Source of the DNA: a virus
DNA: 54,236 bases
IMG/VR virus record: IMGVR_UViG_3300021962_000138
Coordinates: 1-54,236 of that record
Direction: 5' to 3' (one strand)
Shown: in pieces, positions 5,151-53,765 of the stretch
How positions within the stretch are numbered: position 1 is the first letter of the stretch
Layout: the number at the start of each line of letters is the position of its first letter
The notes under the pieces: generated by a model
Databases searched by the model: none
Seen by the model: the letters and a program-made list of their open reading frames with translations, nothing else
Told to the model about the DNA's origin: nothing
Program-made: the position numbers and the translations under genes

Positions 5151-5286
5151 ATGGGTTAGTTTAGCAAACTACCTTTGGAAAATATCAGAAATAAAACACC
5201 CCCGTTCTCCTCTTATCAAAGAAATGATAAGAAAATTAAATGCAAATATGGAAGTGATAATAGATGAATTTAATGAAGATGAGTAG
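5137..5286 (+). CDS. small hypothetical protein upstream of ligase
   Basis: A 49-residue protein with GGAGG 6 nt before the ATG. It overlaps both the preceding gene (14 nt) and the ligase gene (23 nt), a tight packing typical of this virus. It is helical with an acidic C-terminus. The family is unknown. Confidence 0.55.
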   Translation: MKKNEWVSLANYLWKISEIKHPRSPLIKEMIRKLNANMEVIIDEFNEDE

Positions 5287-6796
5287 GCTATTAGAGGCTA
5301 CTGAATTCGATAACCCCAAATCAAAAATAAACAGGATTTCAAGAACCTTAAAAGAAGAAGATAACGATACAAGAATCAAAGTATTAAGAGTTCTTTCTTT
5401 AGATTTAAAACAGAATAACATTGGTTTAGTAAAGGGAAAGAAATGGCTTGCCGAAGCATTCGGTATCTTTGAAGATGAATTAGATATGGTTTATACTTCC
5501 GTTGAAGATATTGGAGAAACGGCTAAAATTTTAGATAGCACAGAAAACTCCATTGAATATTCTTTGAATAATCTAATTCATTTGTTAGAATTAGATTGTT
5601 CAAATCATTCTATTGCATTTCCTACCATTAAAGAAACTCTTCTTTCTATGTCGGATTTAGAAAGAAAATGGTTTGTAAAGTATTGGTTAAGGTTGCCGAA
5701 AAACGGACTCAATGAAGCAACCATGATTAAAATTTTAGCAAAGATTTTCTCTAAATCAATTACTGATGTGAAAAATCATTGGAATCATTTTACAATCGAA
5801 GAATTAGTGAATGCCTATTCCAATAATAGAGAACTTGTTCCTTCACTTAATCATGGTCGTTTCATAAAGCCAATGCTTGCTAAAGAAGTAGAACCGTCTA
5901 AGTGGAAAGAAACCTCTATTGTGGATTTCAAGTATGATGGAAACAGATACCAAATACACAAAGAAAACGAATCAGTTATTATTTTCAATAGGAAAGGTTC
6001 CATAGTTAATTATCAATTCCCCGATGTAGTAGAAAGAATATTACATCAATATGATGATGGTATTTATGATGGTGAAATTTATCCAATAAATTCTCAAGGC
6101 CACCCCATAGAACACAAACACATGGGAACGAGAGTTCATTCTAAAAATTGGGAAGATGCTAAAAAGGTAGAAGTGAAATGGGTAGTGTTCGATTGCCTTA
6201 AAATCAAAGGCAAGAACATAATGCACCTTCCATATGAAGAAAGAATACAGGAGTTTTCTCACTTACCATATCAAGCCCAAAGACAAGTAGGAGGAGATTT
6301 TATGTCCTTCTACAATAGAGCAATAAGCGAAGGTTTTGAAGGAGTTATTGTAAAAGATAATGAAAGCCCATACCTCGCAGGTTCTAGAAGCATAGCATGG
6401 GCTAAATACAAGCCTCCACGAATAGAATTAGATGTTGTTATTGTAGGAGCAAGATATGGAGAGGGTTCAAATGTCAATGTATTCTCTTCTTTTGATATTG
6501 CCGTAAAAGAAAGTTTTGATACCGCCAATGGTTTCAAAGTGATAGGGAGCGTGGGAACAGGATTTAGCCAACAAGACTTATCCTTCTTAACAAGAGAATT
6601 AAGAAGATTTACTCAAGGCGTTACAAAAAATACCTATCATTTTCTACCGAGAGTTATTTTAACGGTCAATGCTGACTTAGTAACAAGAAATGCAGAAGGG
6701 GATTTGGCTTTGCGATTTCCTAGAATGATAAGAATTAGAGAAGATAAAATAGTAAGTGAAATAAATACACTTGAAGATGTTGAATTATTCAGTTAG
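5264..6796 (+). CDS. lig: ATP-dependent DNA ligase
   Basis: A 510-residue protein. The nucleotidyltransferase motif I KYDGNR (Lys ~223, the AMP acceptor) follows an N-terminal helical DNA-binding domain. Motif III lies in DGEIYP, IIIa in VVFDCL, IV in EGVIVK and V in AWAKYK. Motif VI RFPRMIRIREDK lies near the C-terminus in an OB fold. All catalytic motifs are intact. It seals nicks using ATP, joining Okazaki fragments in viral replication. An AGTG box 11 nt upstream supports the ATG at 5264; an ATG at 5279 is possible. The window also encodes a second, unusual ligase-like protein (47324-49816). Confidence 0.95.
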   Translation: MNLMKMSRLLEATEFDNPKSKINRISRTLKEEDNDTRIKVLRVLSLDLKQNNIGLVKGKKWLAEAFGIFEDELDMVYTSVEDIGETAKILDSTENSIEYSLNNLIHLLELDCSNHSIAFPTIKETLLSMSDLERKWFVKYWLRLPKNGLNEATMIKILAKIFSKSITDVKNHWNHFTIEELVNAYSNNRELVPSLNHGRFIKPMLAKEVEPSKWKETSIVDFKYDGNRYQIHKENESVIIFNRKGSIVNYQFPDVVERILHQYDDGIYDGEIYPINSQGHPIEHKHMGTRVHSKNWEDAKKVEVKWVVFDCLKIKGKNIMHLPYEERIQEFSHLPYQAQRQVGGDFMSFYNRAISEGFEGVIVKDNESPYLAGSRSIAWAKYKPPRIELDVVIVGARYGEGSNVNVFSSFDIAVKESFDTANGFKVIGSVGTGFSQQDLSFLTRELRRFTQGVTKNTYHFLPRVILTVNADLVTRNAEGDLALRFPRMIRIREDKIVSEINTLEDVELFS

Positions 6797-44801: not shown

Positions 44802-46136
44802 TCAAGCGATGTTAGTAATCTTTGCTTGTCCTCTAAAGAAGGAACAACCTGTTTCAGCAATTGTTCGATACAATGCTTGATTTCCTAGACGGCCTACACC
44901 GAATGGGTTTCCGTTGCTAATACCATCTTCAAAGTATTGAGTTGGTTTCAAAACTTGAAGCCACAAGTGGTCTGTATCAAGGAATAGCATATCGCTAATT
45001 CCACTATCTGCTGAATTTCGTGTTCCTGTCATTTCCTTAACAGGAATAAGAGGAATGTCGTAGTATGTTGCTACACGGAATCCAACTTCTTGACCCTTTA
45101 CACCACGAACACCATTAACAGTAGGAATAACTTCCTTTCTATCCATGAATCTTTCTTGTGCTTGGAGCAAATCAGCAATTGCTTGAATGGTGTCATATCC
45201 TGTTAGGATAACCTTTGGTGAACCACCTGCTTCTCGGAGTTGTCGAATAACCGAGTTGATAAGAGTCAAGGTTAGAGGTCGAACTGATGATGCGGCATAT
45301 GATGAGTTGAAATCAACAATTGCATCAAGATAAGAAGCCGCAGTAAATCGCTCTTCACCGTAGATTTTACCGAGATTGTTAGTAGCAGAAGTTGTATCTG
45401 TTGCGAGAACTCCGCCATCAAGAGCAAGAAGTTCTGCTCGGCTTGTAACAATCTTAAGGAGTGAAGTATAGTTTCGCTCAATATCTGCTAGTGCGCTTGA
45501 TTCACCATAGAATTCAAGTGGCATAACCAACATTTTGTTTTGTGCTTCTGCGTGTGCTTTACCCATATCTTCTCGGATAATTGCTCGAATATCGCCTAGT
45601 CCATCATCAATTTGAGCCATTTCCATAGCGAGTTCGGAAATATCAAATTGGTGTGCAATTGTCTTAGGCGACATGAAAAGTTGTGCGTAAGTAGGAGCCA
45701 TAGAACTAAGTCCATCTGCCGTAGTAGAAAGTCCTGCGTTTTCGGGAACACCACCAATCTCGTCTGCTTGTGGGTCATCGGAACCGATACCGCCTCCGCT
45801 TCCATCGGATTGTAGAGTCAATGTGTTTCCACTACCACCAAAAGGACGACTCTTAAGAATACGCCATCCACTTGAATTGTATGGCCTCTTAGAAAGCATA
45901 GCCAAAGCATTAACCTCTCGGTTAAGCATTGACCATACTTTTTGTCCGTAAAGAACATTGTAAAGTCCTGTTGTTCCTGTAATTCCTGTTACTCCGCTTG
46001 CGGAAGCATCTGTAATATCGTGTGCAGTATGTAGTCCTTGAACTACACCTGCTTGCTTAAGGAGAGAATTTCCTCCAAAGGCAGGTAGGCCGTATGTTGA
46101 TGCTTCCAAATCTCTAATTGTGTTAATATATCCCAT
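44802..46136 (-). CDS. major capsid protein (HK97 fold)
   Basis: A 444-residue protein starting at MGYINT, 9 nt after a GGTG box (the longer frame upstream lacks such support). It has an N-terminal helix (delta-like domain) and a Gly/Ser-rich loop consistent with an E-loop (residues ~100-150). Further features are a spine helix, a strand VILTGYDTIQA and a late P-domain region. Order protease-capsid-decoration and size fit HK97-type shells. Codons look more GC-rich than neighbours, as in highly expressed genes. Confidence 0.85.
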   Translation of the reverse strand: MGYINTIRDLEASTYGLPAFGGNSLLKQAGVVQGLHTAHDITDASASGVTGITGTTGLYNVLYGQKVWSMLNREVNALAMLSKRPYNSSGWRILKSRPFGGSGNTLTLQSDGSGGGIGSDDPQADEIGGVPENAGLSTTADGLSSMAPTYAQLFMSPKTIAHQFDISELAMEMAQIDDGLGDIRAIIREDMGKAHAEAQNKMLVMPLEFYGESSALADIERNYTSLLKIVTSRAELLALDGGVLATDTTSATNNLGKIYGEERFTAASYLDAIVDFNSSYAASSVRPLTLTLINSVIRQLREAGGSPKVILTGYDTIQAIADLLQAQERFMDRKEVIPTVNGVRGVKGQEVGFRVATYYDIPLIPVKEMTGTRNSADSGISDMLFLDTDHLWLQVLKPTQYFEDGISNGNPFGVGRLGNQALYRTIAETGCSFFRGQAKITNIA

Positions 46137-46146
46137 GTTTTTCACC

Positions 46147-46824
46147 TCAATATTCTCCGCTAACCGCTTTATGAATATCGCTCCATGACATATCGGAAAT
46201 TTCATCTAGTGAAAAGACCTTTACTGTAGAAGCAACTTCTTGGGCTTTGCGAATTTCATTCTTTTCTTCTGTAAGCGACTTTCGGAGTTCGCTAAATTGT
46301 GTCTTAAGATTTGTAATTTCTGCTTGTGCATTGTATTCTGCTTTAGCAACCAAATCATTACGAGAAGCAACTTCTTGCTTAAATCGTGTTTCAAATTGCT
46401 TTTCTAATCGGCCATAAGCCAATTTTTCAAGTTGTTCTTGTCGAAATTGCTCATAGGCTTTCTCGATGTTTTCGTTTGAAAGGTTGAGCGAAGTAAATTC
46501 ATTGTTACTGAATGCTTTAGTAACATTGTGTTCCTTAAAAGCCTGTGAATCGCCTGTTGGTCGGCCACCACTAACTACAACATTATCAGCAGGTTCGCCA
46601 TCTTCAATTGAACCTGCGTCAAGGGTTGGAGTTGGGCCTTTCATTTCACTATCATCGGCTTTATCATATCCCATCATTTCTTCTTCGCCATCAGTTGTGT
46701 CCATCATTTCTTCCGATGGATGGCCACTACCATAGCCTTTTTCTTCTTCTTCTTCTTTACGAAGTTGATTTACTTCCTTTAGAAGCATATCAAGTTCGCT
46801 TAATGCTTTTTCTAGTTTTGTCAT
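46147..46824 (-). CDS. probable nested scaffold protein (internal start)
   Basis: An in-frame ATG at 46824 inside the protease gene begins a ~225-residue acidic coiled-coil protein (MTKLEKALSEL...). An AGTG box lies 10 nt before it (AGTGAAAAATATG), the same spacing as real gene starts here. Lambda and similar phages make a scaffold from such nested starts. This would give a separate scaffold and a protease-scaffold fusion. Confidence 0.45.
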   Translation of the reverse strand: MTKLEKALSELDMLLKEVNQLRKEEEEEKGYGSGHPSEEMMDTTDGEEEMMGYDKADDSEMKGPTPTLDAGSIEDGEPADNVVVSGGRPTGDSQAFKEHNVTKAFSNNEFTSLNLSNENIEKAYEQFRQEQLEKLAYGRLEKQFETRFKQEVASRNDLVAKAEYNAQAEITNLKTQFSELRKSLTEEKNEIRKAQEVASTVKVFSLDEISDMSWSDIHKAVSGEY

Positions 46825-47343
46825 ATTTTTCACTTCCTGTTTTAAGATGTCAAATTTCGCTTCGGGGTTAATTCCTTTTTCGCATATGGTAACTTCGTGT
46901 AATTCAAGTTTGCTAATCTCATTGTATTCGCCTAACTCTTCATTACGCTTTTTTACTTTTTGTAACGCCTGTCCTCCAATGCTAAAACTTCTTAACGAAC
47001 CTTTGCGAATGCCTCTATTTATTTCCTTTGCTTTTTCTATATCATCTCGGAGTTTAATTACAACAAAGAAGCCCACATCATCTACTTCTGTTTTCCATAA
47101 CCTCCCCGATTTATCCCTGTATGAATCTACTACTTCTCCGACTTGAACATTAGAATGATTTGTCATTACATTACGAAATCTATCTTTTTCCATAAATTTC
47201 TTTACTGCTCCCTCCAATGCTTTTAATGTAATCAAGTCGTTTTGCTTATCTACCATTTCTATTGAAGCATATCCACCAATCATTAAATCTTCATTTGCCT
47301 TTAGTATCATAAAGTCATTGTTTTTATGAAGCATTAGTGTCAT
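46147..47343 (-). CDS. prohead protease with C-terminal scaffold region
   Basis: A ~398-residue protein. The N-terminal ~170 residues match HK97/S78-type or XkdF-like proteases: IGGYAS, TNHS with the catalytic His, GEVV, SFSIGG with the catalytic Ser, and LELHEVTICEKG with the acidic residue. The rest is acidic and coiled coil (residues ~175-375), as in a fused scaffold, and ends with SDMSWSDI. It would cleave scaffold and capsid in the maturing procapsid. It overlaps the ligase-like gene by 20 nt. The start is uncertain among several nearby Met codons. Confidence 0.82.
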   Translation of the reverse strand: MTLMLHKNNDFMILKANEDLMIGGYASIEMVDKQNDLITLKALEGAVKKFMEKDRFRNVMTNHSNVQVGEVVDSYRDKSGRLWKTEVDDVGFFVVIKLRDDIEKAKEINRGIRKGSLRSFSIGGQALQKVKKRNEELGEYNEISKLELHEVTICEKGINPEAKFDILKQEVKNMTKLEKALSELDMLLKEVNQLRKEEEEEKGYGSGHPSEEMMDTTDGEEEMMGYDKADDSEMKGPTPTLDAGSIEDGEPADNVVVSGGRPTGDSQAFKEHNVTKAFSNNEFTSLNLSNENIEKAYEQFRQEQLEKLAYGRLEKQFETRFKQEVASRNDLVAKAEYNAQAEITNLKTQFSELRKSLTEEKNEIRKAQEVASTVKVFSLDEISDMSWSDIHKAVSGEY

Positions 47344-49816
47344 CGGCTTCAACTTCCTTTGTTCTATCTTGACTATTTAAGTGCTTCGCTTTATTTTGTA
47401 ATTTAAGGTCTTTGAACTTGTCATTATAAATATTCCAAATACCTTCATCTGTGCTTTTATCAACGGGTTTTTGTTCATAGCCCGTCCATGCTATCCACAT
47501 TTTTTCTCCTTTTGTTTCTACAACTCTAAAATGAAGTTTAGTTTCAAACTTATTTCCTTTTAGAATGTATTCATGATAGCCATGTCTTTGAACACCTAAT
47601 TGAACTTCTCCTTCATCAAGTAATTTAGTTCTATCTATATTTGTAGATATTTCAGCAGGATATTTTACGGCTTTTCCAAAGAAAGCAAAAATATCATCAT
47701 CAGTAGCAATATCAATATTCCAATTTAGAATTTCTTCTTTATGCTCTACTGCAAAAGAAAGATTGCCGTCCTTTCTAAGATAGACTTTAAATTGAGAAGA
47801 TTCTTTAACAATTTTATCATGTTCTGCAATTACAATATTATTTTTAACTGTAAGACCATCTCTTAAATTAATCCATTCTCCTAGTTCTTTTTTATTAGAT
47901 TCTAGTAGAGTTTCATAATCATTAGCATATTCTTTTAAAAGAAAATTATGAACATCTATAACTGTTTGGGGTTTATTTTTATTTTTGATGAAGTTAATTA
48001 TTGCTACTGTAAGTTTTCCTTGCATCGTTTTGAGAGTTTCTTCTGCTTCTTCTTTCCAAAAATCTAAATCTTGTAGGGCATTCTTAGACATTAGATTGTT
48101 TTCTTGAAAACCATAAATAGTAAATCCGTCCATACTTTTAGCAATAATAGTAGCAGTTCCGTGAATATTATCTGTAATCGTTATACCTTTTTTAAGAGCC
48201 TCAACATTATATTTTAGAGAAGGCTTAGTATCTTTAGCCAACATCTCTAATGTAACTATTTTATCGGGTTCTTCGACTTCGGGTATTTCTATGACCTTAG
48301 CAGAATAAAGTGTATATTTTCCCCCACTTTCTTTTACTTCATCTACTTTGACTCTAATGATTTGGCCAACATCAACAACGGTTTTTGTGTTGAGGGCTTT
48401 ACCAACATTCATGTAAAATTTACCGTTTATTTCAGTTCCGCCCTCTTCTTCATCAATTGGCCCTGCCCCTAAAGTATAGGAATACATACCCGATTTTGTG
48501 CCTTTCTTATCAAGAACAATCAAATCTAAATCTACAAATTTCTTCCATTTTACCCATTTAGGATTTTTCTTTGTTCCTATGAAATATGTGGATTCTATAT
48601 CCTTGATAACAACTCCTTCGGAAGTAGGCATTTCCATAATTTCTTCTGCGTATTCCTTTACATCTTTTAGATTATCTGCAATCCTAGTATCTTTTTTAGA
48701 AGGAAAGAATAAATCTTCCGAAGATTTTGTAGAGTAATTATTGAATAGAATATTGATTCTTTTTCTCAATGGTTCATCTGTTAGTTTTTGATTTTCATGC
48801 CTCAAAATATCAAAAACATGGGCTTTGAGTCTAGACTCTTTGTAGGAATTTTTGAAAATATGGGCTATTGTATCGGCCCTATGAAGTGCTTTATCACCAT
48901 CAAACAGTATCAATTCAGCATCAAGAATACAATCCCCGTATTCCTTTTTCTCTAATTCTTTGACTTGTTCTTTACACTTCTCGGTAATGTCTTTTTCATT
49001 ATATGAATAGATTGAAACCTTGCCGTCTATTTTGTGTAATTGGATTCTCATTCCGTCATATTTTTCTTGAACTACATATTCTCCGCTAAACCCTTTGAGT
49101 TCATTCATATCTTCAATGTCAAAAATTCGATACATTGGTTTATTTGGAACTAAGAAATGAACATTCGCTTTTTGTTCTTTTTGAATTTCTACAAGTTCTT
49201 CAAATTCTTCTTCTTCATGTTTTGAGAAATAAAATAATTCTAGAATGTTAAGTGCTTCCTCTACTTTCTTTTCTACTTGTTTTGTATCTTTATCATCACC
49301 ATAATGTTCAATAATATAGAGGCTAATATCTTCTTCTTGTAAATCAAGACCTTGAAGCCCGACAGTTAAAGTATCTTCTTCCATATCTTTGATTGAATAT
49401 ATATCTTTAGGTAGGGCTTTATCATCGGAGCGAAGAGCATAATGAACAAATTTAACCATTGTTTCGGGCGAAGATAAAAGAGCCTCTAATACATCTCCCT
49501 TAAATTTGTCAGCGAATGGGTCTTCTACTTTTTCGGAATCATATCTCATAAGTTTAATTGCTTCATAAATATCTTTAGCAACATTCGATTCGGGGTTTTT
49601 AGCATCTTTATCTTCTATTTTTTCTTCTCCAACATAATTTTCTAATTCGTCTTTTATTTCCGAAGAAAAGGCTCGATTGATTTCTTCAATGATATTTCGC
49701 CAACGCCCCCCATATTCTTTGGGGTCTTCTTTTGCTGAAAGATATGCTACTCTTGTTTTCTCAAAGAGTCGAAGGATTACATTAGAAGCGTTATCTTTTT
49801 CGATAAGATACGCCAT
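47324..49816 (-). CDS. ATP-dependent ligase-like protein fused to a degenerate LigD phosphoesterase-like domain
   Basis: An 830-residue protein in the virion block. Residues ~1-225 are acidic helices of unknown type. The adenylation domain has motif I EKYDGMR (Lys252), III LDAELILFDGD, IIIa HVFDIL, IV SEGVVIK and V KWVKWKK. An OB-like part follows, but it lacks the basic RxPRxxRxRxDK motif VI seen in the other ligase. The last ~150 residues resemble the LigD 3'-phosphoesterase: an F-K-V-x strand, a LNWNID turn and YILKGNKFETKLHFR...MWIAW. The catalytic LHxDxR is LSFAVE, so that domain looks inactive. The virion location suggests packaging with the genome (inference). Confidence 0.82.
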   Translation of the reverse strand: MAYLIEKDNASNVILRLFEKTRVAYLSAKEDPKEYGGRWRNIIEEINRAFSSEIKDELENYVGEEKIEDKDAKNPESNVAKDIYEAIKLMRYDSEKVEDPFADKFKGDVLEALLSSPETMVKFVHYALRSDDKALPKDIYSIKDMEEDTLTVGLQGLDLQEEDISLYIIEHYGDDKDTKQVEKKVEEALNILELFYFSKHEEEEFEELVEIQKEQKANVHFLVPNKPMYRIFDIEDMNELKGFSGEYVVQEKYDGMRIQLHKIDGKVSIYSYNEKDITEKCKEQVKELEKKEYGDCILDAELILFDGDKALHRADTIAHIFKNSYKESRLKAHVFDILRHENQKLTDEPLRKRINILFNNYSTKSSEDLFFPSKKDTRIADNLKDVKEYAEEIMEMPTSEGVVIKDIESTYFIGTKKNPKWVKWKKFVDLDLIVLDKKGTKSGMYSYTLGAGPIDEEEGGTEINGKFYMNVGKALNTKTVVDVGQIIRVKVDEVKESGGKYTLYSAKVIEIPEVEEPDKIVTLEMLAKDTKPSLKYNVEALKKGITITDNIHGTATIIAKSMDGFTIYGFQENNLMSKNALQDLDFWKEEAEETLKTMQGKLTVAIINFIKNKNKPQTVIDVHNFLLKEYANDYETLLESNKKELGEWINLRDGLTVKNNIVIAEHDKIVKESSQFKVYLRKDGNLSFAVEHKEEILNWNIDIATDDDIFAFFGKAVKYPAEISTNIDRTKLLDEGEVQLGVQRHGYHEYILKGNKFETKLHFRVVETKGEKMWIAWTGYEQKPVDKSTDEGIWNIYNDKFKDLKLQNKAKHLNSQDRTKEVEADDTNAS

Positions 49817-49827
49817 TTTTCATCACT

Positions 49828-50220
49828 TTATTCATAGCCTAAATCTCGCATAATTGCATCTACAATTCTCGTAAATTCCATTAAATGTTTATCGTAGTCC
49901 AATATTTTTTTATCTACTAAAGGGTTAATCAAAGAATAAACATTATCAAATGCACTATTTAATTGATTTTTTAGTTTTGAGTTCAATTCTTGCTTTTTCA
50001 CACTTTCACCTGCTAAACCATATCCCGAATGTGTATTTTTATTGTTTTCAATTTTAGTATTGTCATTTTCAGCCTTTGGTCTTTTGACTTTGACTTCTTC
50101 CATATCATCATCATAAGGCAAATTTACTTCGTTTTCTTGTTGAATAAGTTGTTTTACTAAACGAAGTTGTTCTACTGTCTGTCTAATTATTGCTTCTTCT
50201 TTGGTAACTTTTTCGGGCAT
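49828..50220 (-). CDS. small virion-block helical protein
   Basis: A 130-residue acidic/basic helical protein starting MPEKVT, about 8 nt after GGAGG. It has a Lys/Asn-rich linker in the middle and helices at both ends. The family is not recognised. It lies between the ligase-like gene and a protein with the MSW motif. Confidence 0.55.
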   Translation of the reverse strand: MPEKVTKEEAIIRQTVEQLRLVKQLIQQENEVNLPYDDDMEEVKVKRPKAENDNTKIENNKNTHSGYGLAGESVKKQELNSKLKNQLNSAFDNVYSLINPLVDKKILDYDKHLMEFTRIVDAIMRDLGYE

Positions 50221-50221
50221 T

Positions 50222-50455
50222 TTATCTTCCTCCATTTACAAATTTATCAATGTCTTCCCAACTCATTTTATGGATTGCATCGGAATCGGGAACTCCCATG
50301 TTTGTCATTGAAGGTGTTGGTGTTTCAGTAACTACAAATCCCGACTTCATCAATAAGTTGTCTTTATGATAAACGGCTCTTTCTAGTTCTTTTATTCTAT
50401 CAGTTAGTGCTTTTAGAATTTCTAAAAGTTCAGTATCTTGTTCTACATCATTCAT
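50222..50455 (-). CDS. small protein with C-terminal MSWEDI motif
   Basis: A 77-residue protein: an N-terminal coiled coil (residues ~5-30), a flexible Pro/Thr linker and a C-terminal IHKMSWEDIDKFVNGG. The same ending (DMSWSDIHKAVSG) closes the prohead protease/scaffold. This suggests a common binding peptide for a capsid or portal partner. The gene overlaps the next gene upstream by an ATGA-type overlap. Confidence 0.6.
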   Translation of the reverse strand: MNDVEQDTELLEILKALTDRIKELERAVYHKDNLLMKSGFVVTETPTPSMTNMGVPDSDAIHKMSWEDIDKFVNGGR

Positions 50456-51890
50456 CTCTTAAATCCCCCTTTCTTTTTGGAAATACTACTTCTCTTAATT
50501 GACGATATAGTAACTCATACTCTTTACGAAGTCTGCTACTTAACGCTACCATATCAATATTCCTCTCGTCAATAGATTCAAACCTTTTTTTCATTTTATT
50601 GTCAGATTTTATTAAATCTAATTCTTTGAGCATATCAATTAGTTCACCTAATCGAGTAAAGTCTTGACCAAAATATTCTGTTGGCTCAACTGATTGTAAG
50701 GTTTTCTTGAGTCTTTTTCTTTCTTTATCATCTAAAGTGTCTAGAATTGGGCTGAATTCTTTTTCGATTTCTTGTTTTTTAATGAATGTTTCTAAATATT
50801 CATTTACATATTCTTCTAATTCCTTTATGTTAGAATTTAATTCGGACTCATACAGTTCGGCATTTTCTTCTTTTAGTCTATCATTCAAATTCATTAAATC
50901 TTCATCGGAAATAGTATCTTCTACATTATCTAAACTAGAAACATATTCTTCAATTATTCTATCTAAATCATCAAGTTCAAAAGCCATTGAATAAGGGTCA
51001 TCTAGTGTGCTACTAAAAAGAGTAGCCATATCTTCTACAAATCTACCTCTATATCCTGCTATGTTTTCTTCTTTATTCAAACGATAAAATAATACAGTTA
51101 CTATTTTTGTAGGTCTATTTATTTCTAATAAGCGAGATAAAATATCCTCTTCGTAATTTGCCCTAAGAAATATTTCGTTATCTTCATCATTCAAAGTCGA
51201 ATTCAAAATCTTATTTATTCTTCTTCCTAAGTTTTTCAGTTCTCTAAACTGTTCTTGTTCTTTATAGGGTTGAGTTGTAATGATAAGTTTTCCCTTATCT
51301 TGAATAAAATACATTACATCATTAGAGTCTTTTTCTATTCTTTCTAGAAAATTTCCTAATCCATCAATTTTTTTAGCCCAATCTAAATTAGAAGAAAAAG
51401 GGCCATTTTGGAATTTTTCAAGACTAGTTTCAATATTTTTTATAATTTTAATATATGATTCTTGTATTTTTTTATCTTTAAATTCTCCTCTTACGATACC
51501 TTCAAAGATTTTAGAGGCTTCTACTATTGTTGTAGGAGGTTTTATTTTTGTTATTCTTTTCAATTCTAACGCAGTTTCATATATTGAAACTAAAAGTGTA
51601 TTTAAAAATGAAGTGTCTATGTCTTTAGATAAAGATTTTAGATACTTTTTAATTTTGTTAAGGCTATCATCAACAGATTTAGATTCCTCTTCATTTAGAT
51701 AGTCGTTTTTATATTCATCTGTATTAGCAACATATCTATTCACTTCTTTAATATATTGTTCAAGCCCATCCCCTTTCTCACTATCAAATCTACGCATAGC
51801 ATCTTCAACAGTAATTCCTTTAGGCATTCTGCCGCTTCTATCTAAAGAGTCCTCTTCATTTTCTGCTTTAAGGATAGAAGTCCAAGACAT
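50448..51890 (-). CDS. large coiled-coil virion protein beginning MSWTSI
   Basis: A 480-residue, highly charged, helical protein with long coiled-coil segments and no recognised enzyme motif. A GGTG box 10 nt upstream fixes the start at 51890, so the protein begins MSWTSILKA, echoing the MSW motif at the ends of two neighbours. A structural or scaffold-like head role is inferred from location between portal and protease. Confidence 0.6.
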   Translation of the reverse strand: MSWTSILKAENEEDSLDRSGRMPKGITVEDAMRRFDSEKGDGLEQYIKEVNRYVANTDEYKNDYLNEEESKSVDDSLNKIKKYLKSLSKDIDTSFLNTLLVSIYETALELKRITKIKPPTTIVEASKIFEGIVRGEFKDKKIQESYIKIIKNIETSLEKFQNGPFSSNLDWAKKIDGLGNFLERIEKDSNDVMYFIQDKGKLIITTQPYKEQEQFRELKNLGRRINKILNSTLNDEDNEIFLRANYEEDILSRLLEINRPTKIVTVLFYRLNKEENIAGYRGRFVEDMATLFSSTLDDPYSMAFELDDLDRIIEEYVSSLDNVEDTISDEDLMNLNDRLKEENAELYESELNSNIKELEEYVNEYLETFIKKQEIEKEFSPILDTLDDKERKRLKKTLQSVEPTEYFGQDFTRLGELIDMLKELDLIKSDNKMKKRFESIDERNIDMVALSSRLRKEYELLYRQLREVVFPKRKGDLRDE

Positions 51891-51895
51891 AATGC

Positions 51896-52120
51896 TCACC
51901 ATTTATTTTCTGTTCGTGGTCTTTTCTTGATAGGTAATTGAATAGCATCGGGAGTATCAGCAGAACCAACTTTAGATTTATGGGTTGTATCGGGTGGAAG
52001 TCCACCTAAAGAATAATCCCTAGATGGCCTAACTTGATTATCGTTTGACATTTTTTCTGCTCTTACTTTCGCTAATTCTTTTACTAATCTTCTCTCTTTT
52101 TGTCCTATATCTTCTGTCAT
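51896..52120 (-). CDS. small Pro/Lys-rich virion protein
   Basis: A 74-residue protein starting MTEDIG; the upstream in-frame codon at 52141 lies inside the portal gene and has no good box. A basic N-terminal helix is followed by a disordered Pro-rich part ending KKRPRTENKW. It overlaps nothing but sits 1 nt from the portal stop. The family is not recognised. Confidence 0.5.
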   Translation of the reverse strand: MTEDIGQKERRLVKELAKVRAEKMSNDNQVRPSRDYSLGGLPPDTTHKSKVGSADTPDAIQLPIKKRPRTENKW

Positions 52121-52121
52121 A

Positions 52122-53765
52122 TTAACCAATTCTCCTTTCACTTCTTCTATCTACATTTTGGTTTCCCGCATCTGTCGGCAATCCCGTAAATCTCTTATCG
52201 GGGCCTACGCTCATCGAGGGTTTATTTCTTGTGGTTGCAGGATTCTCTTGAGGTTTAGAAGGCATACCTCCACCTTCTGCAAATTGTCTTTGCATTTCAT
52301 CTAAATCTCTTTGGTCTAAATTTGACCCTGCTAATGAATTACTTTCTATTGCTTTTTCAGTAGGGGCTTCTTGTGTTTCTACGGGTTCGGGCTTCTTAAA
52401 AGTAAAGTTTCCATCTTCGTCCATTTCAACTTCAAATCCAAGATTTTTAGTAGAAGCGGCAATATTAACTTCAAGTTCTCTCTTTCTCAATACTGCAATT
52501 TCATCTTCTTCTTCACTTGGAGGTAGTTTCAAATTCCAATCTGTAATACCGAATTGCTTAACCAAAAAAGGAAATACATAATTATTATACACATTTTGAG
52601 CCATTTGAACTGCTCGGTTAGTAACAAGGATTTGCATACCTTCATTATTCAATCCTCCACTTGTAGTATTGTCAGCCATAAACACTTTACTTACACCATA
52701 AAATGCTGAAATCCTATCTCTTAAATCATCTTTAACTGAAACATAATCCATTTCTTTTAGACTATCCATGAACTTAATCCATTCAACAGACCCCTTTCCA
52801 TTTTCTGCTTCTATTCCCATAACAGGAATATAATGGGGGTCTTGTTCCATTCTTTCTTTGACTCCACGCCAAAAGGCCGCCATTGAATCCATATTTCTTG
52901 TTTGAACTGCGAGAATCCCTCTCGGCATACGGCTTTTTGTATAAGACGAATTAACATAAGTTTCCATAGCAATAAGAGTCATAATATGATTGAATAAAGT
53001 AAGAATAGGGGATTGACCATAAAGCCTACTAGGATTATATTTACTAAAGTGAAGTATTTCTCCTTCAATATAATATTGCTCTTCTCCATTTGCTCTATTT
53101 ACATAATGAATGGGGAGCAAATTACCTCCACAATCTTGACAATTTTCATACGGTTCAATAGAAATATAATTTCTATGATTGATACAAGTAAAGCCCTTTG
53201 TTCCACGAATACCTACTTCATCAGCATAAATACTCATAGTAACAGGGTCGCCCCTAAATAATTCTTTGATACGGTGCATACGGATTTTACCATTACCGTC
53301 TAAATAATATTCTTTTACAAGAACAATATAAGCATCATCCATAATATTCAAATCCTCTTCTAATTCTTTTAGAACATCAATAAAGAGTTGCTCGGATTTA
53401 TTGATATATCCCTCTAGAAATTTTTCAGCATATTCTAACTGTTTGGGATTTGGTAATGCTAGATTATTAGAACCACATCTAGAACATTCAGTAACAGGTC
53501 TTTTATGTGTTTTTTGACATTCGTTACATCGGCTTTCATAGGCTTTTTCCCAAACATACCCTCTTCTAAATATCTCTTGTTTGAGTTGAGTAATACAAGT
53601 CCGAACAATAACCGATTGACTTACGACATTATAAATCATAGGGGCGGTCATCATGTAGGAGTTTTCTCTTTCTTGAATCCCTACATTATACACCCTGCGG
53701 TCATTTGGCTTAGGGGTGCTTCTACGGAATAAATTCGTAAAGGAAAATCTACTTTTTTCAGCGAT
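52122..53765 (-). CDS. portal protein, probable ATC start, with zinc-ribbon insertions
   Basis: A ~547-residue protein with portal hallmarks: a helix with SQSVIVRTCITQLKQEI, LHFSKYNPSRLYGQSPI (the conserved stem/wing turn), and a helix RDRISAFYGVSKVFM near residue 360. Two zinc ribbons interrupt the N-terminal half (CNEC...CSRCG and CINH...CQDCGG), which is unusual. The conserved-looking N-terminus (FTNLFRR...) lies upstream of the first GTG, in frame. No ATG/GTG/TTG lies there, but an ATC at 53765-53763 is 8 nt after GGAGG. The portal forms the DNA entry ring of the capsid. Confidence 0.85.
   Translation of the reverse strand: MAEKSRFSFTNLFRRSTPKPNDRRVYNVGIQERENSYMMTAPMIYNVVSQSVIVRTCITQLKQEIFRRGYVWEKAYESRCNECQKTHKRPVTECSRCGSNNLALPNPKQLEYAEKFLEGYINKSEQLFIDVLKELEEDLNIMDDAYIVLVKEYYLDGNGKIRMHRIKELFRGDPVTMSIYADEVGIRGTKGFTCINHRNYISIEPYENCQDCGGNLLPIHYVNRANGEEQYYIEGEILHFSKYNPSRLYGQSPILTLFNHIMTLIAMETYVNSSYTKSRMPRGILAVQTRNMDSMAAFWRGVKERMEQDPHYIPVMGIEAENGKGSVEWIKFMDSLKEMDYVSVKDDLRDRISAFYGVSKVFMADNTTSGGLNNEGMQILVTNRAVQMAQNVYNNYVFPFLVKQFGITDWNLKLPPSEEEDEIAVLRKRELEVNIAASTKNLGFEVEMDEDGNFTFKKPEPVETQEAPTEKAIESNSLAGSNLDQRDLDEMQRQFAEGGGMPSKPQENPATTRNKPSMSVGPDKRFTGLPTDAGNQNVDRRSERRIG

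Follow-up and report, generated by a model that had tools for sequence, protein, structure and literature searches.

The phosphoesterase (PE) fold is known from bacterial and archaeal LigD, where it is paired with a ligase, and from stand-alone archaeal 3'-phosphoesterases (PF13298; 3N9B, 3P43, 3P4H, 5DMP). In Pseudomonas aeruginosa LigD, His42, His48 and Asp50 bind manganese, and Arg52, His84 and Tyr88 bind a phosphate mimic (PMC8656161). Archaeal replicative ATP-dependent ligases (Thermococcus, Archaeoglobus Lig1) are built on a nucleotidyltransferase and OB core with motifs I-V. Among viruses, a ligase gene next to the prohead protease gene has been mentioned for a group A magrovirus (PMC7318539). 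We analyzed a 54-kb window, the 54,236 nt of IMG/VR virus record IMGVR_UViG_3300021962_000138, that encodes an 830-amino-acid (aa) ligase-like protein (query P0001), here called LIG2, among its head genes. We read LIG2 as the magrovirus-like form of a head-module DNA end-healing and sealing family that combines an archaeal-type ATP-dependent ligase core with a LigD-type PE domain. LIG2 shares the nucleotidyltransferase and OB core with the archaeal replicative ligases, to which sequence searches place it closer than to LigD, and differs from them by lacking motif VI and by carrying extra winged-helix and PE-like domains. In contrast to LigD, it is encoded in a head operon, and no Pfam match to the PrimPol polymerase domain, which many LigD proteins have and some lack, was found in it.

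The ligase core of LIG2 is strongly conserved. One scan of viral contigs returned 80 relatives, and the set after later scans comprised 69 non-redundant sequences (<90% identity), and the most divergent members share about 43% identity with the query. Pfam DNA_ligase_A_M matches residues 240-425 of LIG2 (E 7.8e-30), and the same search gave no match to DNA_ligase_A_C. Motif I, QEKYDGMR, holds Lys252, and motifs I, IIIa, IV and V are invariant in all 69 relatives, as are the individual residues Lys252, Asp254, Gly255, Arg257, Asp299, Asp336, Glu400, Lys405, Lys423 and Lys425. The motif III Glu is present in 64/69 and replaced by Ser in the other five; L032 and L101 show this Ser and retain the motif I lysine. 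In the AlphaFold 2 (AF2) model of LIG2 (mean pLDDT 77, pTM 0.38), residues 215-538 match archaeal DNA ligases by VIA with Z of about 22, a span indicating that the OB domain is present. Classical DNA ligases require motif VI for self-adenylation. The RxDK signature of this motif was not found in LIG2, which has VIEIPEVEEPDK opposite RKDR of the ANMV-1 ligase described below, REDK of L122 and RSDK of L123, and it is also absent from the aligned close relatives. Since motif VI is weak or missing in several other distant relatives too, its loss is not peculiar to the LIG2 lineage. VIA alignments begin at about residue 215 and connect no part of residues 1-208 with the DNA-binding domain of ligases.

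We folded the C-terminal fragment (residues 530-812) separately by AF2 with 45 sequences (mean pLDDT 79.7). The model is a beta barrel whose best seven Foldseek matches in the PDB are all LigD phosphoesterases. VIA aligns this barrel to LigD PE structures at Z 8-12, including 3p43 (Z 11.9, root-mean-square deviation 2.5, 101/124 residues) and 3p4h (Z 11.2, root-mean-square deviation 1.9, 93/118 residues). Profile-profile comparison between the C-terminus of LIG2 and LigD PE yielded nothing significant, so the case for homology is made by the predicted fold together with the distant relatives; Pfam LigD_N has no match in LIG2 at E up to 1, nor anywhere in the 54-kb window. Aligning the motifs LHYDFR and LSFAVE places Arg681, Ser687, Ala689 and Glu691 of LIG2 at the positions of His42, His48, Asp50 and Arg52, and equivalents of these four ligands are retained in none of the 69 LIG2 sequences. 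The PE domain therefore looks catalytically dead. Elsewhere in the domain, GYHEY and the segment behind it are conserved, with His748 and Glu749 kept in 69/69. Upstream of the barrel, residues 591-668 resemble winged-helix domains, with Z of about 10 to the N-terminal region of Egalitarian and lower values to winged-helix regulators. These results bear out the domain reading of an initial annotation made from the sequence alone, which had described intact adenylation motifs I-V around Lys252, a missing motif VI, and a C-terminal LigD PE fold, apparently dead, with LSFAVE in place of LHxDxR.

Distant relatives connect LIG2 to PE domains with an intact catalytic motif. Among 50,697 phage records, the sole family member at the sensitivity used was AJP62006 of ANMV-1 (KP703175), annotated as 'ATP-dependent DNA ligase'. 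It resembles LIG2 in its ligase and OB domains (hhalign E 7.7e-14 over both), in the YHEY segment (E 2e-6, 38 columns) and in the position of its gene directly behind the portal gene (PF06381, 3.2e-22). Unlike LIG2, it carries an N-terminal MNT-like nucleotidyltransferase motif and retains the motif VI-like RKDR. Its PE-like segment, HIHGRGKSVHGDLMF, keeps the His and Asp, with the Arg changed. A scan with the ANMV-1 protein by itself found no relative, and an alignment led by it yielded about 25 further metagenomic virus loci. The proteins of this distant family span about 600-1700 aa and combine, in various ways, the MNT-like motif (ANMV-1, L122, L130), a ligase, PE-like repeats (one or several) and additional domains. 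Most of the family keeps Q-x-H...H-x-D-x-R, with equivalents of Gln40, His42, His48, Asp50 and Arg52; those of His42, His48, Asp50 and Arg52, lost in LIG2, are present in 22 distant loci. Of 4574 open reading frames (ORFs), 22 contain the strict motif Q-x-H-x-R-G-x-[STC]-x-H-x-D-x-R, all within distant-family loci, and LigD_N scores above its curated cut-off in L138 and L139.

Ligase and PE in the distant family are either fused or split, next to portal, protease or capsid genes; they are adjacent separate genes in L137-L139, L141-L144 and L151. An XkdF protease domain ends the proteins of L128, L129 and L135 (1.1e-28, 7.9e-30 and 8.2e-29), and in L126 XkdF lies directly downstream. L136 has the portal upstream (1.6e-31) and an S78 protease directly downstream (9.5e-10), L122 lies behind the portal (4.2e-28), L130 also has a portal upstream, and a capsid gene is downstream in L123, L130 and L138. 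Some members carry further domains. The 1708-aa protein of L136 (4744-9867) contains a D12 methyltransferase domain and, within its PE domain, an intein-like insert (Hint, LAGLIDADG). In L127 (3811-8319) and L138 (3343-6876), an N-terminal metallo-beta-lactamase-fold domain is fused to the ligase, recalling ligase-associated nucleases.

In the window, LIG2 sits in an unbroken head operon: the 77-aa and 135-aa ORFs lead into it, its end overlaps the start of the protease gene, and the capsid gene follows the protease (Table 1). The order portal, gp50448, (gp49828), LIG2, protease, capsid is held wherever a contig extends far enough. Scans anchored on the portal and on the protease, chosen to lessen the bias of starting from LIG2 though still favoring close relatives, found LIG2 at its expected place in 65/65 and 69/69 loci with sufficient flank, respectively, in agreement with the initial placement of the gene between portal and protease. 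By gene order, then, the LIG2 family is encoded together with the portal and the prohead protease, and it is probably assembled together with them. Domain content, conserved neighborhood and protease fusion in relatives can be read directly from the sequences.

A head-associated role, one part of the initial annotation's suggestion of a packaged and injected protein that perhaps seals or caps genome ends, is supported by this strict synteny and by the ligase-PE fusions to the XkdF prohead protease in relatives, from which we infer that LIG2 lies inside the prohead. We favor a reading in which packaged LIG2 mends the viral genome on entry; we hold it tentatively, as a finely balanced call. LIG2 would be retained in the head, exit with the DNA, bind nicked or broken ends and reseal the entering genome ahead of early gene expression. 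Cleaning of 3' ends would have been the task of the PE in the ancestral protein; here, with its metal site gone, the domain probably does no more than bind DNA ends, and the nucleotidyltransferase core is under strict conservation. This reading draws on the invariant catalytic core across the 69 sequences, the ligase and PE folds, the synteny and the protease fusions. A broader version, that widespread virion-borne, LigD-like end-healing and sealing machines are assembled in the prohead with the protease or fused to it and delivered with the genome to mend breaks or join its ends at entry, the magrovirus-like form being derived with a dead PE, is possible, if on the doubtful side. Mycobacteriophage Ku (Corndog, Omega), which exploits non-homologous end joining for genome circularization (Pitcher et al. 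2006, as cited in PMC4351075), offers a functional analogy for virus-borne end joining at genome entry. Its gene lies outside the head operon, and Ku itself is no ligase.

Several points weigh against packaging and resealing by LIG2. The strongest caution comes from phage Corndog (PMC4351075): its virions were found to lack the enzymes whose genes sit between portal and protease, so that this position by itself says little about packaging. The LIG2 viruses are uncultured, and packaging, injection and DNA as the substrate are inferred for them. With motif VI missing, sealing by LIG2 is a proposal, and five sequences have also exchanged the motif III Glu. The protease fusions occur in distant relatives and not in the magrovirus-like viruses. 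Searches for PCNA, MCM and TFIIB did not settle the hosts of most of the distant relatives, and the MCM model was uninformative because it matches all control genomes, bacterial ones included.

The place in the late operon, which every locus examined keeps between portal and protease, and the protease fusions would equally well fit a protein that acts during assembly: at the portal or in the prohead, it would seal nicks or clean concatemer ends to prevent a stall in packaging, with little or none of it in the mature head. The Corndog precedent is compatible with this, as genes so placed need not end up in virions. The replicative ligase found in this virus and in most near-full-length relatives tested could, however, seal concatemers, and a protease-fused copy would sit inside the shell, away from the incoming DNA end; we consider an assembly role unlikely but to be taken seriously. 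LIG2 might instead be a structural pseudoenzyme, a head protein of internal or scaffold-like kind that is noncatalytic in this virus and uses its former ligase and PE surfaces for binding DNA: the PE metal site is lost in all 69 LIG2 sequences, motif VI is missing, the motif III Glu is not universal, and large accessory domains are inserted at two linkers. Yet a purely structural role would have no need of Lys252 or of motifs IIIa, IV and V, all of which stay unchanged across wide divergence; we rate this explanation as distinctly unlikely.

The phage polyvalent proteins (Iyer et al. 2017, PMC5512222) are large multi-domain enzymes encoded among portal, terminase and head genes and proposed to be packaged; the LIG2 family likewise consists of multi-domain enzymes among head genes, the magrovirus-like form having few domains. 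A delivered counter-defense effector of this type, for instance one repairing host-nuclease cuts or blocking host end-processing, would fit the metallo-beta-lactamase-fold, D12 methyltransferase and MNT-like additions in relatives and the tie of polyvalent architectures to portal and terminase phages, but it is very improbable for LIG2, as no defense target is known, this virus retains just a ligase and a dead PE, and no description of a ligase-LigD PE protein was found in PMC5512222, where the term LigD is absent and the three listed mentions of ligase refer to RNA ligases or to ligation.

Table 1. Coordinates of LIG2, its domains and related genes in the 54,236-nt window
Feature	Position (nt)	Strand	Basis or remark
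LIG2, 830-aa ligase/PE-like protein	47324..49816	-	ORF and translation; Pfam DNA_ligase_A_M 7.8e-30
N-terminal helical domain, residues 1-208	49193..49816	-	AF2 model; about 100 aa shorter in L088/L089 clade
Nucleotidyltransferase domain, residues 225-427, motifs I, III, IIIa, IV, V	48536..49144	-	VIA and conservation
Lys252 codon, motif I lysine	49061..49063	-	kept in 69/69 non-redundant relatives
OB-fold domain without motif VI RxDK, residues 428-531	48224..48535	-	VIA; ANMV-1 alignment
Small beta segment, residues 544-570, invariant His552	48107..48187	-	model and conservation; low model confidence
Winged-helix-like segment, residues 584-668	47813..48067	-	VIA
LigD phosphoesterase-fold domain without the catalytic residues, residues 673-781	47474..47800	-	Foldseek and VIA
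LSFAVE (686-691) at position of PE motif LHxDxR	47744..47761	-	no His/Asp/Arg at matching columns, 69/69
GYHEY (746-750), shared with ANMV-1; PYFHEYF in distant relatives	47567..47581	-	hhalign; conservation
Major capsid protein	44802..46205	-	PF17236 1.9e-6, phrog_24667 1.6e-21
Prohead protease, S78/XkdF type, overlaps LIG2 end	46147..47352	-	PF04586 2.4e-11, PF14550 2.7e-6
135-aa protein (gp49828), 11 nt upstream of LIG2	49828..50235	-	adjoins LIG2 in most, not all, loci
77-aa ORF filling head-operon gap	50222..50455	-	translation
484-aa conserved head-module protein (gp50448)	50448..51902	-	synteny across loci
Portal protein	52122..53693	-	PF04860 2.9e-11, phrog_18178 6.4e-63
LIG1, complete DNA ligase, opposite strand, other gene block	5264..6796	+	PF01068, PF04679, PF04675

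As the initial annotation had pointed out, the genome also encodes a separate complete ligase, LIG1 (Pfam DNA_ligase_A_M 1.2e-31, DNA_ligase_A_C 1.2e-10). In a tree of the nucleotidyltransferase region, rooted by midpoint only and with long branches between groups, LIG1 is split from LIG2 and the distant relatives with branch support 100/100. The tree places LIG1 in a different lineage and so rejects LIG2 as a stray or recent copy of this replicative ligase. Every strong full-length LIG1 match in the 26 large records searched co-occurs with LIG2; a scan anchored on LIG1 for co-occurrence gave four loci only and was dropped. In G020, the 88-kb record of L094 from the clade with the short N-terminus, LIG2 is the sole PF01068 match, and it may be the only ATP-dependent ligase of that virus if the record is near complete.

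The two gene blocks of the genome are oriented in opposite directions, and its portal is 27-28% identical to those of HVTV-1 and HCTV-5, that is, Druskaviridae-related. Opposed replication and head gene blocks have been described for magroviruses (PMC10768690, PMC12999244). Given this portal, the opposed blocks and the virus's own LIG1, we treat the virus as magrovirus-like, magroviruses being matched by description only; it is a tailed virus, probably of marine archaea. A scan of genome contigs for LIG2 matched solely metagenome-assembled genomes labeled Maricaulis and Altibacter (L086-L090). The contigs inspected carry the same virus head operon and are taken as mis-binned; they thus give no host.

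The initial annotation also took the architecture to be new. This stands in so far as our literature search found no paper describing LIG2 or the ligase-PE family; it does not stand for single members, as the ANMV-1 protein is deposited as a ligase, BFVD entry A0A516LT18 aligns over its full length with LIG2 at 50% identity, and a magrovirus ligase gene had been mentioned. The ligase-PE head-module family is thus little noticed, with single members already deposited, and its nearest known kinds are LigD and the polyvalent proteins. If our favored reading of LIG2 as a packaged resealing protein is true, tailed viruses would carry a break-repair toolkit in the head, independent of host repair, which would bear on how packaged DNA, not repairable inside the capsid, is mended on entry. 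A gene that we saw in all magrovirus-like head operons examined, from viruses attributed to abundant ocean archaea, would also gain a function. The link of ligase and phosphoesterase to the prohead protease provides a direct handle for testing head-borne repair, and one large lineage that has lost the PE site, set against relatives that keep it, is a natural experiment on what a PE fold does without catalysis.

Some LIG2 proteins carry mutually related insertions of about 120-165 aa, which occupy one linker in some viruses and a second linker in others, as though an accessory domain had moved from one to the other. They follow the position of P0001 residue 212 in L038, L039, L041 and L042, and lie between the winged helix and the PE domain in L153, L154, L156, L157, L160, L167, L171, L177 and L181. 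We judged an intein unlikely for the 150-aa insertion of the first group, because a related insertion is found at the second linker in other LIG2 proteins.

Joining of a DNA-acting enzyme to the protease has a parallel in Pseudomonas and Rhizobium phages (H58-H65, H76, H78), where XkdF-like segments lie under features annotated as DNA methyltransferase, some of them named 'DNA methyltransferase/prohead protease protein'. The parallel comes from annotations only, and the enzyme joined there is a methyltransferase, not a ligase-PE protein.

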